Shown here: in pieces, positions 48,024 through 53,450 of the stretch | Layout of the letters: every line of letters begins with the position of its first letter | How positions within the stretch are numbered: the stretch's first letter is position 1 | NCBI GenBank assembly: GCA_032249735.1 | Contig: JAVVHA010000002.1 | Span: 62,001 to 126,000 of the forward strand | Length of the DNA stretch: 64,000 nucleotides | Direction: 5' to 3' | DNA from: Dehalococcoidia bacterium | GTDB lineage: Bacteria > Chloroflexota > Dehalococcoidia > SM23-28-2 > HRBIN24 | Translations under genes and position numbers: made by a program | The notes under the pieces: generated by a model | Told to the model about the DNA's origin: nothing | The model's input: the letters and a program-made list of their open reading frames with translations, nothing else | The model's database searches: none

Positions 48024-49085
48024 ATGGTGAAGCTGAGCCGGCTAACCTCCCTCTTGGGACTCTTCTCTCAGGACATGGCCATCGACCTCGGCACCGCCAA
48101 CACTTTGGTTTGGGTGCGGGGCAAAGGCATAGTGGTGGAGGAGCCTTCGGTGGTGGCCCTCGATAAGGTGGCCCGCCGCATCATCGCCGTGGGAGCAGAG
48201 GCCAAGCGCATGGTGGGGCGCACGCCAGCGGACGTGGTGGCCATAAGGCCTCTGCAGGACGGCGTCATCTCCGACTTCACCGTCACCGAGAAGATGCTCC
48301 AGTACTTCATGCGCCTGGCCGTAGACCACGCCTTCCTAGCGCGGCCACGCGTCGTCATTGGCATCCCCTCGGGCATCACCGAGGTGGAGAGGCGGGCGGT
48401 GCACGATGCGGCCCTCAACGCCGGCGCCCGCGCCTGCTATCTGATGGAAGAGCCCATGGCCGCAGCCATTGGCGCCGGCCTGCCCGTCTCCGAGCCGGGA
48501 GGGTGTATGGTGGTGGACATCGGTGGCGGCACCACGGAGGTGGCCGTCATCTCCATGGGGGGCATTGTGGTGAGCACTTCCATCCCTGTGGCGGGCGATG
48601 AGATGGACCATGACATCATCGCCTACCTTCGCCAGGTGCACAATTTGCTCATCGGCGAGCGCACGGCCGAGGAGGTGAAGATAGAAGCTGGCTCGGCCAT
48701 GCCCTTGGAGGAGGAGATCACGGTCAGCGTGCGGGGACGGGACCTGGCTACCGGCCTGCCTAAGGAGGTACAGGTGAGCTCGGTGGAGATAAGGGATGCC
48801 CTCTCCGGCTCCGTCAACGCCGTGGTGGAGGCGGTGCGCCAGACCATCGAGGCCACCCCGCCGGAGTTGGTGGCAGACATCATGCGCCGGGGCATTGTGC
48901 TGGCTGGGGGTGGCGCGTTGTTGCGGGGCCTAAGCTTGCGCCTCTCCCAGGAGACCAAGTTTCCCGTATACCTGGCGGAAGACCCTATGCGCTGCGTGGT
49001 GCGCGGGTGCGCCGCTGCCTTGGAGGAGGTGGCCATCCTCCAACGCCTGCAGGCGCGTATGCAGCGGAGGCGCCCGCCGCGCTAG
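48024..49085 (+). CDS. mreB: Rod-shape-determining protein MreB (canonical)
   Basis: Actin homologue that positions the elongation machinery under the membrane (353 aa). Phosphate-1 is AIDLGTANTLVWV, phosphate-2 is DIGGGTTEVAVIS, the catalytic-Glu region is LMEEPMAAAIGAG, and the adenosine motif is GIVLAGGGALL. All are canonical, unlike the paralogue at 17941. It leads the mreB-mreC-mreD-mrdA-rodA elongasome cluster. Confidence 0.96.
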   Translation: MVKLSRLTSLLGLFSQDMAIDLGTANTLVWVRGKGIVVEEPSVVALDKVARRIIAVGAEAKRMVGRTPADVVAIRPLQDGVISDFTVTEKMLQYFMRLAVDHAFLARPRVVIGIPSGITEVERRAVHDAALNAGARACYLMEEPMAAAIGAGLPVSEPGGCMVVDIGGGTTEVAVISMGGIVVSTSIPVAGDEMDHDIIAYLRQVHNLLIGERTAEEVKIEAGSAMPLEEEITVSVRGRDLATGLPKEVQVSSVEIRDALSGSVNAVVEAVRQTIEATPPELVADIMRRGIVLAGGGALLRGLSLRLSQETKFPVYLAEDPMRCVVRGCAAALEEVAILQRLQARMQRRRPPR

Positions 49086-49096
49086 TTTAAGGAGGC

Positions 49097-49966
49097 ATGG
49101 ATATCCTCCCCACATTCCGGCCCCGGTCCGGCCCTTTCCTACGGGCCACCCTGTGGGGCGTAGCTCATATCGTCTTGGCATCCCTCCTCCTCCTGGCGTC
49201 CCAGAAGGGCGCCCTGAACGGGCTGCAAGATGCTGCCATCTGGGCCATGGGGCCCTTGGCCGCACCCCTGCGAGATCTAGGCGACTGGGGATCCGATGTG
49301 GCTCGTGGCCTCTTCCGGCGTCCCCAGGTCATCAGGGAGAACGAGGCCCTGCGCCAGGAGGTGGAGCAGCTGCGGGCCCAGCTGGCCGCCCAAGCCGACG
49401 CCGGCGGACGCGTCCGAGAGCTGGAGTCCATGATGGGGTTACGTGCCCAGCGGGGCCAGGATGAGCTCCTAGTGGCCCATGTCATCGCCTTACATCTGGA
49501 CGCCAGCACCCAGGCCATCGCCATCGACCGCGGACAGGAGGACGGTCTAGTGAAGGGGATGGCCGTCCTGTCGGCCCAAGGGAGCCTGGTAGGCACCATA
49601 TCGCACCTCCTCCCCCATCACGCCTGGGTCACCTTGGTGACCGACCCCCGTATGCGGGTGAACGTAGCGGTTCAGACCACCCCTGGGGAGGAGGTGTGGG
49701 GCATGTGGCTGGGCCAAGTGGGCGGTGGCCCCACGGTGGACATGCTCCCTCAGGGCGCCCCCATCAAGGCAGGGCAGCTGGTGGTGACCTCGGGCCTTGG
49801 GGGGCAGCTACCCCCGGGCATCTTGGTGGGCACCATCAAATCGGTGGACGATAACCCCCAGCACGTCTTCGTCCGTGCTGCTGTGGAGCCGGCAGCCCGC
49901 CTGGACCGGCTGAGGACGGTGGCCGTGCTCACAAGCCATAGGCCTGCGGAGCTGGGGGAGCCATGA
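49097..49966 (+). CDS. mreC: Rod-shape-determining protein MreC
   Basis: Bitopic scaffold of the elongasome (289 aa). It has a short cytoplasmic N-terminus, one membrane helix (about 21-36), a coiled coil (REVEALRQEVEQLRAQL region, about 78-115), and the periplasmic beta domain with VTLVTDPRMRVNVAV and GLGGQLPPGILVGTI. It overlaps mreD by 4 bp. Confidence 0.94.
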   Translation: MDILPTFRPRSGPFLRATLWGVAHIVLASLLLLASQKGALNGLQDAAIWAMGPLAAPLRDLGDWGSDVARGLFRRPQVIRENEALRQEVEQLRAQLAAQADAGGRVRELESMMGLRAQRGQDELLVAHVIALHLDASTQAIAIDRGQEDGLVKGMAVLSAQGSLVGTISHLLPHHAWVTLVTDPRMRVNVAVQTTPGEEVWGMWLGQVGGGPTVDMLPQGAPIKAGQLVVTSGLGGQLPPGILVGTIKSVDDNPQHVFVRAAVEPAARLDRLRTVAVLTSHRPAELGEP

Positions 49967-50478
49967 GACATCGGGCCTTATTTCTCTTCCTGCTAGCCTT
50001 CGCTTGCCTATCGCGCATCTCTTTTCTGCACCATCTGGAGCTCATAGGGGTGGCGCCGGACCCGGTGCTGGTGCTGGTAGCCGCCTGGGCCCTCCTTTGG
50101 GGGCCCACCGAGGCCGCCCTTCTCCTCCCCCTGGCCGGACTGGCCACCGACCTGGTGCAAGGAGGGCCTGTTGGCCTCTCCATACTGGGGCTGATGCCCA
50201 TACCATTGCTAGCCACCTTTCAGGAGCTGAGGGTAATGGCTGTGACCCTGCCTTTGGCCGTCGGGGTGGTGGCCGTGGCCACCATGGCCCATCACCTGAT
50301 CACCCTCTCCGTCAGGGCGGCCATGGGCCAAGGCCTGCCCTGGGGGGAGGTGCTCACGAAGGAGGCCGTGCCAGAGGTGTTGGTCAACGCCCTCGCTATA
50401 TCCATCGTCTATCCACCCCTGCAGCTGGTGCGTCGCTTTCTGGGGTTCCCGCCCCAGGGGCTGACCATCGGGAGATAG
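49963..50478 (+). CDS. mreD: Rod-shape-determining protein MreD
   Basis: A polytopic membrane protein of 171 aa with about five hydrophobic helices (LFLFLLAFACL, DPVLVLVAAWALLWGP, LAGLATDLVQGGPVG and others). The family is weakly conserved; position directly after mreC (ATGA overlap) and before mrdA supports the call. It ends 3 bp before mrdA. Confidence 0.85.
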   Translation: MRHRALFLFLLAFACLSRISFLHHLELIGVAPDPVLVLVAAWALLWGPTEAALLLPLAGLATDLVQGGPVGLSILGLMPIPLLATFQELRVMAVTLPLAVGVVAVATMAHHLITLSVRAAMGQGLPWGEVLTKEAVPEVLVNALAISIVYPPLQLVRRFLGFPPQGLTIGR

Positions 50479-50481
50479 ACC

Positions 50482-52338
50482 ATGTCCGTATCCCAGCGTC
50501 GTACCGTCGGCAGGCCATCGCCCTCCCCGGCGTCCGCCACCCCTCCTCGCCCCCCTGCTGGCCCCCTTACCTTTCTTCTCCTGCGGGCGTTGGTAATCGT
50601 GCTTTTTGCCACTTTGATAGGACAATTGGTAAGGCTGCAGGTGGTGCAAGGGGAGAAGTTTCGGCGCCTTGCGGAGATCAACGCCTTGCGTCAAGAGGCG
50701 GTGACCCCTGCCCGCGGCCTGATATACGACCGCTACGGTCGGCCGCTGGTGCACAATGAGCCCTATTATCAAGCAGCTGTGGTGCCTGGGGACCTGCCCA
50801 AGGGCAGAGAGGAGGAGGTGCTGGGGAGGCTGGCAAGGCTCATCGGCATATCCCAGCAGGAGATGGAGGCTCGCCTTAAGGAAACGGCCGGGCGCCAGAA
50901 CCCATACCTGCCCGTGGTGGTGGCCAACGGGCTTTCACGGGAGGTGGCCCTCAAGCTCAAGGAACTGGAGAGGGAGCTGCCAGGGACACGCCTCCTGGTC
51001 ACCGCTATCCGCCGCTATCCCCTGGGCCAGGACGCCGCCCACCTCTTGGGATATGTAGGACCTATAACGGCCGAAGAGCTGGCCGAGATGGGTGGGGACG
51101 GCTACACCCTCCACGATTGGCTGGGGAAGATGGGGGTGGAGATGTTGTATGAAGACACGCTGCGAGGCACGCCCGGTCGGCGGTTGACAGAGGTGGACGC
51201 CCTTGGACACCCCCGGCGGCTGGTGGCCGAGGAACCGCCCCGCCACGGCATGAACCTGGTTCTGACGCTGGATGCCCAGCTCCAGAGAGCGGTAGCGACG
51301 GCTCTGGGGAGGGCCACCTCCGGCGTGGCGGCGGCCGTAGTGATGGACGTCCGCACAGGCGATATCCTGGCCCTGGCCTCCCTCCCCGCCTTCGATCCCA
51401 ACCCCCTCTCGCACCCCCAGCTCCTTGGTCAAGCCTCAGATCTACTGGCCCACCCCGACAAGCCCCTTCTCAACCACGCCCTGGGGGAGGCCTATGCCCC
51501 TGGCAGCGTGTTCAAGCCCATGGTGGCTGCTGCCGCCTTGCAGGAGGGGGTGATCACTCCTGCTACCGTGTTTGTGAGTCACGGCTACATCACTGTGGCC
51601 CACCCCTACGATCCGCGAGCCATCCAGGTCCTCAGGGACTGGGACATCCTGGGGCCCATGGACCTGAGCAAGGCCCTAGCCCTCGCCTCCCATGTCTATT
51701 TCTACCGCTTGGCAGGGGGCGAGGACGGCGCTGGCGGGCTGGGCCCAGAGAAGTTGGCCCGCTATGCCCGTGGCTTTGGTCTGGGCTTTTCCACTGGCAT
51801 CGAGCTGCCTGGGGAGGCAGAGGGGTTGGTCCCCGACCCCGTATGGAAGGAGCGGGTGCTCAAGGACCGGTGGAGCGCCGTGGACACCTTTCGCATGGGG
51901 GCGGGGGGAGGGTATCTGCGAGTGACCCCCCTGCAGATGGCCGTAGCCACTGCCGCCATCGCCAACGGTGGCCACCTCCTGAAGCCCCGCCTCGTCCTGG
52001 AGGTAATAGACCATGAGGGGAGGGTAGTGCGCCACGTCCCACGGCAGGTGAGGGGGGAGGTACCTGTAGGGCAGGACGCCCTGGCGGTGGTGCGACAGGC
52101 CATGGCCACCGCTGTATCCCAGGGCATAGCGCGCCAGGCCCAGGTCCCTGGGCTTCCGGTGGCCGGCCTGGCCACGGTGCAGGGGCCTGGCGAGGTGGCC
52201 CATGGCTGGTTCGTGGGCTTCGCCCCCGCCAATGAGCCGGAAGTAGCTGTGGTGGTATTCCTTAGGGATGGCACAGGGGTTCAGGCTGCCCAGGTAGCCT
52301 CTCGCATCTTCCAGGCCTGGTGGGAGGGGCGCCCATGA
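50482..52338 (+). CDS. mrdA: Penicillin-binding protein 2 (MrdA) with degenerate transpeptidase site
   Basis: Elongasome class-B PBP (618 aa): one membrane helix (about 30-50), a pedestal domain (RGLIYDRYGRPLVHNE), then the transpeptidase fold. SxxK is intact (Ser342-Val-Phe-Lys345 in PGSVFKP). The SxN/SxD motif reads Ala402-Ser403-His404 (ALASHVYFY). The KTG motif reads Leu563-Ala564-Thr565 (VAGLATVQG). Two of three catalytic motifs are therefore lost while the frame, length and fold are kept. It may act mainly as an activator of RodA. It overlaps rodA by 4 bp. Confidence 0.9.
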   Translation: MSVSQRRTVGRPSPSPASATPPRPPAGPLTFLLLRALVIVLFATLIGQLVRLQVVQGEKFRRLAEINALRQEAVTPARGLIYDRYGRPLVHNEPYYQAAVVPGDLPKGREEEVLGRLARLIGISQQEMEARLKETAGRQNPYLPVVVANGLSREVALKLKELERELPGTRLLVTAIRRYPLGQDAAHLLGYVGPITAEELAEMGGDGYTLHDWLGKMGVEMLYEDTLRGTPGRRLTEVDALGHPRRLVAEEPPRHGMNLVLTLDAQLQRAVATALGRATSGVAAAVVMDVRTGDILALASLPAFDPNPLSHPQLLGQASDLLAHPDKPLLNHALGEAYAPGSVFKPMVAAAALQEGVITPATVFVSHGYITVAHPYDPRAIQVLRDWDILGPMDLSKALALASHVYFYRLAGGEDGAGGLGPEKLARYARGFGLGFSTGIELPGEAEGLVPDPVWKERVLKDRWSAVDTFRMGAGGGYLRVTPLQMAVATAAIANGGHLLKPRLVLEVIDHEGRVVRHVPRQVRGEVPVGQDALAVVRQAMATAVSQGIARQAQVPGLPVAGLATVQGPGEVAHGWFVGFAPANEPEVAVVVFLRDGTGVQAAQVASRIFQAWWEGRP

Positions 52339-53450
52339 GCTGGCGGGAGATCTCACGGCGGTGGGACCCCTGGATGGTTGTAGTGGCCCTGGCTTTGGCC
52401 GCCTATGGGGGCCTCATCATCTACAGCGCCTCCCTTAGCGCCTTCCCAGATGGGGTCACAGGGCTGGACCACCCAGTGGTGAAGCAGGGGTTGGCAGTGG
52501 CATTGGGCCTCACCCTCATGGTGGCGGTGATGGCGGTGCCATTTCGGGTGTGGGCCCTGGCCGCCCCAGTTCTGTATGGCCTCACCCTCGTCCTGCTGGT
52601 GATGGTGCTGTTGGTGGGCCAGGCATCCCTTGGGGCTAGGCGCTGGCTGGACTTGGGCCTGGTGCAGGTCCAGGTGTCGGAGATGGCCAAGTTGGCCACT
52701 GTCATCGTCCTGGCCCGCTTCTTCTCCCAGCGGTGGCGGGAGATGGGGAAGGTGGGCAACCTCCTCCTCTCCCTGGGGCTGGCCGCCGTGCCTGCCCTCC
52801 TGGTAATAGTGGAGCCGGACCTGGGCACGGCCATCATCTTCGGCGTTGTGTGGGTGGTGATGGCCCTGATAGGGGGGGCCCGCCCTAGCCACGTGGGGAT
52901 GGTGGTGGCCCTGGTGCTGCTCTCTATTCCTCTCACGGTGGCTGTGGCCTTGGCCGACTATCAGCGGGAAAGGCTGGCCCTCTTCTTCAACCCCAACCTG
53001 GACCCCCTGGGGGGAGGGTTCAACATCCTGCAAGCGGAGATAGGCATCGGGGCGGGCGGCCTGTGGGGGCGGGGCCTTTTCCAGGGCACCCAGACCCAAC
53101 TGGACTTCCTGCAGGCGGCCAGCACCGATTATGCCTTCGCCGTGCTGGGGGAGGAGCTAGGCCTTATGGGAGCCCTCTTTCTGCTCGCCCTGTACGCGTT
53201 CTTGCTGTTCCGCCTCATCAGGGCAGCCGCTTTGGCCCATGACCTCTTCGCCCGCCTGTTGGTGATAGGTTTGGCTGTGACGCTGCTGACGCAGGTATTC
53301 ATCAACATAGGGGTCAACGTGCGCCTGTTACCCGTTACCGGCATCCCCTTGCCCCTGGTCTCCCAGGGTGGCACTTCTACGGTCATCACCATGGTGGCCC
53401 TGGGCATAGCGCAGGGGGTGCTGCTGCGGCAGGCGCCCTTCAACCTCTAG
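52335..53450 (+). CDS. rodA: Peptidoglycan glycosyltransferase RodA
   Basis: SEDS-family glycan polymerase, about ten membrane helices, 371 aa. Typical features are YGGLIIYSAS in helix 1, GARRWLDLGLVQVQVSEMAKL, and the essential Asp in STDYAFAVLGEELG, which is retained, so polymerase activity is expected. INIGVNVRLLPVTGIPLPLVSQGGTS is the C-terminal signature. The start is ATG 52335 overlapping the mrdA stop. Its last 11 bp overlap convergent radA. Confidence 0.95.
   Translation: MSWREISRRWDPWMVVVALALAAYGGLIIYSASLSAFPDGVTGLDHPVVKQGLAVALGLTLMVAVMAVPFRVWALAAPVLYGLTLVLLVMVLLVGQASLGARRWLDLGLVQVQVSEMAKLATVIVLARFFSQRWREMGKVGNLLLSLGLAAVPALLVIVEPDLGTAIIFGVVWVVMALIGGARPSHVGMVVALVLLSIPLTVAVALADYQRERLALFFNPNLDPLGGGFNILQAEIGIGAGGLWGRGLFQGTQTQLDFLQAASTDYAFAVLGEELGLMGALFLLALYAFLLFRLIRAAALAHDLFARLLVIGLAVTLLTQVFINIGVNVRLLPVTGIPLPLVSQGGTSTVITMVALGIAQGVLLRQAPFNL

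Follow-up and report, generated by a model that had tools for sequence, protein, structure and literature searches.

The PBP2 (MrdA) protein encoded in the window, by which we mean the whole 64,000-nt stretch of Dehalococcoidia DNA analysed here, very likely has no transpeptidase catalysis, judging from its sequence, because two of the three active-site motifs are gone from it and the sister genus shows damage to every one of the three. We propose that it is probably a natural pseudoenzyme, kept as an activator or scaffold of RodA with cross-linking supplied by another PBP. The features of the locus are listed in Table 1. The protein scores above the cut-off of the NCBIfam equivalog pbp2_mrdA and contains both Pfam domains, PBP_dimer and Transpeptidase. 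The initial annotation had described the elongasome operon as intact, and the MreB-MreC-MreD-MrdA-RodA order is indeed complete in the window; the same operon with full-length frames is found in 4/4 genomes of the family (the window genome, one congener and two genomes of a sister genus). The window genome is 1.73 Mb in size and 99% complete.

Table 1. Features of the mre-mrd locus, in window coordinates (mrdA taken from the open reading frames of the window)
Feature	Coordinates	Strand	Remark
mreB	48024..49085	+	
mreC	49097..49966	+	
mreD	49963..50478	+	
mrdA/pbp2, 618 aa, predicted non-catalytic PBP2	50482..52338	+	TIGR03423, 504 bits vs cut-off 455
Membrane helix and linker, aa 28-74 of PBP2	50563..50703	+	AF2 helix 28-68
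Pedestal/PBP_dimer domain, aa 75-244 of PBP2	50704..51213	+	PF03717; class-invariant positions kept
Transpeptidase domain, aa 284-610 of PBP2	51331..52311	+	PF00905; fold kept (predicted), cleft degenerate
PBP2 motif 1 SVFK, aa 342-345, kept	51505..51516	+	Sister genus: Ser to Asp
PBP2 motif 2 site, aa 402-404 = ASH, expected SxN/D	51685..51693	+	
PBP2 motif 3 site, aa 563-565 = LAT, expected KTG	52168..52176	+	
rodA, SEDS glycosyltransferase	52320..53450	+	Conserved DPLG loop Asp kept

The initial annotation read the SxxK motif as kept (S342-V-F-K345), the SxN/SxD site as A402-S403-H404 and the KTG site as L563-A564-T565, and every residue is where it was placed. Its claim that no second K-T/S-G occurs in the C-terminal part can be extended, K[TS]G being absent from the whole protein; the sole [KRH][TS]G match is an unrelated RTG at 291. 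A search for S-x-N/D across the window PBP2 sequence gave no match. Of the features of an active D,D-transpeptidase the protein thus has SxxK and lacks both SxN/D and KTG/KSG. Further substitutions affect the cleft at residues 474 and 476 and all of the 563-568 loop.

The congener PBP2 is about 62% identical to the window protein and has the same ASH and LAT, with SIFK as its SxxK motif; most residues flanking ASH and LAT are identical between the two. Both sister-genus proteins have lost the nucleophile, Ser being replaced by Asp (PPLDTFK), and they read GSN or GAN at the SxN site and VTA or VSG at the KTG site. K[TS]G was absent throughout the four family PBP2s. Whether ASH and LAT are conserved in relatives had been raised with the initial annotation. 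In an alignment of 110 MrdA orthologues of the class they are common to the two members of the genus only, the sister genus having lost the motifs in other forms, and SxxK, SxN/D and KTG are all kept in 105/105 full-length orthologues outside the family; one extra orthologue that lacks the KTG end is a contig-truncated sequence. The family forms a fully supported clade. Since the SxN serine and the KTG lysine are missing in all four genomes, the alignment suggests one loss event in the family ancestor, with the nucleophile lost later in one genus. The pseudoenzyme state goes beyond what had first been noted, in that the sister genus has lost the nucleophile and losses recur elsewhere in the phylum (see below).

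The concordance of four genomes from two genera also bears on two trivial explanations, an artefact of sequencing or assembly and an inactive paralogue accompanying the true PBP2, to which we give next to no probability even though the genomes are draft, multi-contig assemblies. Chance and sequencing error as the source of the motif loss are excluded by the independent family genomes, and each genome has one MrdA-like protein, placed in the MreBCD-RodA operon, in addition to three PBPs of other classes. A search for a second, active MrdA paralogue gave none; the remaining PBPs are FtsI, one of MecA_N type and one of class A.

An AlphaFold2 model (15 sequences; pLDDT 78, pTM 0.78) gives the window protein a PBP2 fold with both pedestal and transpeptidase domains. 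The best Foldseek matches of the model are E. coli and Yersinia PBP2 (6g9p, 6tii; also 6pl5_B), the top match 6g9p having an E of 3e-40 and a TMt of 0.80, and VIA-align gave a Z of about 40 against many class-B PBPs. Confidence is low near the cleft, in parts of 308-340 and in 473-477. This low-confidence neighbourhood speaks against reading the protein as a transpeptidase that still works, either with an altered site built from Ser342, Lys345 and residues of ASH and the LAT loop or on an altered stem-peptide substrate. Such a reading draws on the Ser-Lys dyad kept in the window genus and on the identity of ASH, LAT and most of their flanks between congeners despite the divergence of the rest of the protein; we nevertheless consider it very unlikely, as the sister genus has lost the serine entirely with the gene kept, and the further cleft residues and the whole 563-568 loop are replaced. 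Because Ser342 and Lys345 are kept, the window PBP2 may show residual acylation.

We then asked where in the protein the damage falls, counting as conserved any position that is the same in ≥95% of other class members (56 in the transpeptidase domain). Each family PBP2 has changes at 9-13 of these 56 positions, 8-10 of the 17 in the cleft segments and 0-3 of the 39 in the rest of the domain (Fisher p 5e-4 to 3e-6, to be read with the caveat that the zones were drawn around known motifs and that, within a motif, positions are partly dependent on each other). Among the 21 conserved positions of the transmembrane segment and pedestal, none is changed in the window PBP2 and 0-1 in the other three. 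Branch-length ratios of the family versus the rest, computed on a fixed tree, are 0.32 for the transpeptidase domain, 0.22 for the pedestal and 0.19 for RodA. The dN/dS of the transpeptidase domain (NG86) is 0.28 in the sister genus and 0.12 in the window genus (dS saturated), and intact PBP2 pairs gave 0.02-0.25 by the same measure; both PBP2 domains are under purifying selection in the family. From cleft-confined change together with low dN/dS, we read the transpeptidase domain as maintained as a protein, its cleft no longer maintained as an active site. The statement that mrdA is not a decayed gene holds up on the same grounds: the loss is family-wide and limited to the cleft, the frames are intact, dN/dS is well below 1 and the catalytic-loop Asp of RodA is still in place. 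The dN/dS values, the full-length frames and the cleft-only pattern led us to reject neutral pseudogene decay.

Another explanation is that the whole elongasome is losing importance, as in non-rod or slow-elongating cells, and that PBP2 is in early decay, not kept as an activator. All elongasome proteins show somewhat lower conservation in the family than in its relatives, and the effect is clearest for MreD, MreC and MrdA. Within-family identity divided by outgroup identity gives 0.83-0.98 for MreB/C/D, MrdA and RodA versus 1.12 for FtsI, 1.03 for the MecA-like PBP and 1.24 for the class-A PBP. The motif residues of the sister genus are also still drifting (GSN/GAN, VTA/VSG). The identity ratios would be compatible with cross-linking having moved to the other PBPs and equally with a less important elongasome. 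In RodA the invariant DPLG-loop Asp is kept; of 88 other conserved positions, 9 differ in the window genus and 3 do so in the sister genus. We regard a fading elongasome as unlikely, in view of the full-length frames with cleft-confined loss in all four genomes, the purifying selection on both PBP2 domains with invariant pedestal positions retained, and the retention of the operon and of the RodA catalytic-loop Asp.

Peptidoglycan synthesis appears intact in the window organism, since two SEDS proteins (RodA and FtsW) and both MraY and MltG are found in its genome; SEDS proteins and PBP2 are both missing from many other genomes of the class. The initial annotation had suggested that another enzyme does the cross-linking, with a second class-B PBP or an L,D-transpeptidase as the options. 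This idea is supported in part: FtsI (SVLK, SLN, KTG), a class-B PBP with MecA_N (SVFK, SCN, KSG) and a class-A PBP (SAMK, SVN, KTG) all have complete motifs in the window genome. A YkuD L,D-transpeptidase as substitute cross-linker was looked for and is absent from all four family genomes. Since the class-B PBPs number three and the SEDS proteins two, the MecA-like protein is left without a dedicated SEDS partner and is an orphan bPBP, like B. subtilis PBP3. Its presence is permissive and not diagnostic, since it is widespread in relatives that have an intact PBP2. Two further observations were made on the cell-wall enzymes. The FtsI proteins of both window-genus genomes (L001 of G000, 558 aa; L043 of G001) are without the same stretch of ~28 residues just before the transpeptidase domain; in the sister genus this stretch reads RGEPGRVSWQRD...WEEVPP. 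The PF00768 (S11) D,D-carboxypeptidase is absent in the window genus (G000, G001) and present in the sister genus and most order relatives tested (compared: G002, G003, G007, G015, G005).

In general, RodA is thought to need coupling to an active PBP2, since its un-cross-linked product would lead to a toxic futile cycle. Such a cycle is seen in E. coli when RodA works with a blocked PBP2 (PMC6207328); this makes a dead PBP2 beside RodA surprising and means that it would need compensation. Our proposal is that the family ancestor would have lost PBP2 transpeptidase catalysis with the SxN serine and the KTG lysine, the nucleophile following in one genus, and that PBP2 would have stayed in the elongasome, anchored in the membrane, as a pedestal partner serving to activate and position RodA. 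Glycan would still be polymerised by RodA, and the strands would be cross-linked in trans by another PBP whose active site is complete; the likeliest candidates are the MecA/PBP3-like orphan class-B PBP, the class-A PBP or both. We infer activation of RodA by the window PBP2 by analogy with published RodA-PBP2 work, in which PBP2 changes activate RodA polymerisation (PMC6207328), and with dead bPBPs that still support SEDS function: B. subtilis PBP2B S309A supports division provided that the MecA-like PBP3 is active (PMC5656894), and in C. difficile a catalytically dead SpoVD still works via its SEDS partner (PMC12713402). The conserved transmembrane and pedestal positions expected of a SEDS-activating bPBP are kept in the window protein. 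A counter-example comes from Lactococcus lactis, where a dead PBP2b fails to restore elongation (PMC5965867).

The window locus resembles the PBP2/MrdA-RodA pairs of E. coli and T. thermophilus in operon, domain architecture, predicted fold and TIGR03423 score. It differs from them in that its PBP2 is without SxN and KTG, and that of the sister genus also without the nucleophilic Ser; known PBP2s are active transpeptidases whose inhibition is toxic, whereas the window PBP2 is predicted to be inactive. With PBP2B S309A and SpoVD S311A it shares the arrangement of a catalysis-free bPBP in a SEDS-dependent process, and in Bacillus cross-linking then comes from a MecA-like PBP, a type that the window genome also has, as an orphan. 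Those two proteins, however, are laboratory point mutants of division and sporulation PBPs, while the window PBP2 is a natural, family-wide case in an elongation PBP. The MecA-like PBP is our first candidate for the cross-linker, ahead of the class-A PBP, because in B. subtilis a close relative of PBP2a makes up for the missing bPBP activity and PBP2a of S. aureus can replace the transpeptidase of PBP2, although not that of PBP1 (PMC7617827). The S. aureus pairing of PBP2a with a transpeptidase-dead PBP2 is like our proposal in that a MecA-type PBP transpeptidates for the polymerase of another enzyme (PMC7617827). It differs in that S. aureus PBP2 is class A and PBP2a is acquired, whereas the MecA-like PBP of the window genome belongs to the resident genes of the order. 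The open-licence papers searched contained no description of a naturally non-catalytic PBP2, which is weak evidence of absence.

We also surveyed the phylum, using 80 loci outside the class that were the best matches of a family-built profile, a sample that is biased by similarity and gives no frequency. Catalytic motifs are lost in 6/80 of these PBP2 loci, and a seventh case (L267) came from a follow-up PBP search. Four of the degenerate proteins belong to one family, with the nucleophile Ala in three and Ser in one, the SxxK lysine changed to His or Gln, and VVG or EVG at the KTG site where the contig extends that far; one, from a neighbouring family, reads APFQ/GCN/HAA, and two of a third family read SMLN/HCD/MGA and PMLD/GCS/LGG. 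The seven loci (L208, L209, L210, L267, L231, L239, L245; genomes G387, G429, G478, G506, G408, G316, G294) thus cover three families in two clades apart from the window family. In a phylum PBP2 tree built without the cleft columns, the degenerate PBP2s fall into three separate clades, the window family (support 1.0), the four-genome family with its neighbour (0.75) and the third family (1.0), from which we count at least three losses in the phylum, at least two of them beyond the window family (f120+f126 and f86). The MreBCD-MrdA-RodA operon is also present in one other degenerate-PBP2 group. In three genomes of another dead-PBP2 family, PBP2-RodA has as neighbours a long coiled-coil protein and a PBP of class A (L276 785-7445, L277 753-8316, L278 4518-11170), and no MreBCD was detected within these loci. 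A MecA-like PBP with full motifs is found in all dead-PBP2 genomes except one 66%-complete assembly. Separately, an FtsI-like protein (L253, G506:C155:1048-1986) has SLFR/SSE/AEG at the SxxK/SxN/KTG positions and is possibly a dead divisome bPBP (G506 contamination 9%), and the genome of a relative with 6% contamination holds a second, very typical MrdA (G021:C65:698-2461; 725 bits) that is probably foreign.

To us it is an even question whether non-catalytic PBP2 is a recurrent natural state, several Chloroflexota elongasomes having independently split RodA activation, with PBP2 as a pure regulator, from cross-linking by a SEDS-less MecA-like or class-A PBP. If true, elongasomes with a dead PBP2 would mean that evolution can separate the regulatory role of PBP2 from its catalytic one. 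They would offer a native system for studying how SEDS polymerisation is coupled to cross-linking, and an elongation PBP with built-in beta-lactam insensitivity.
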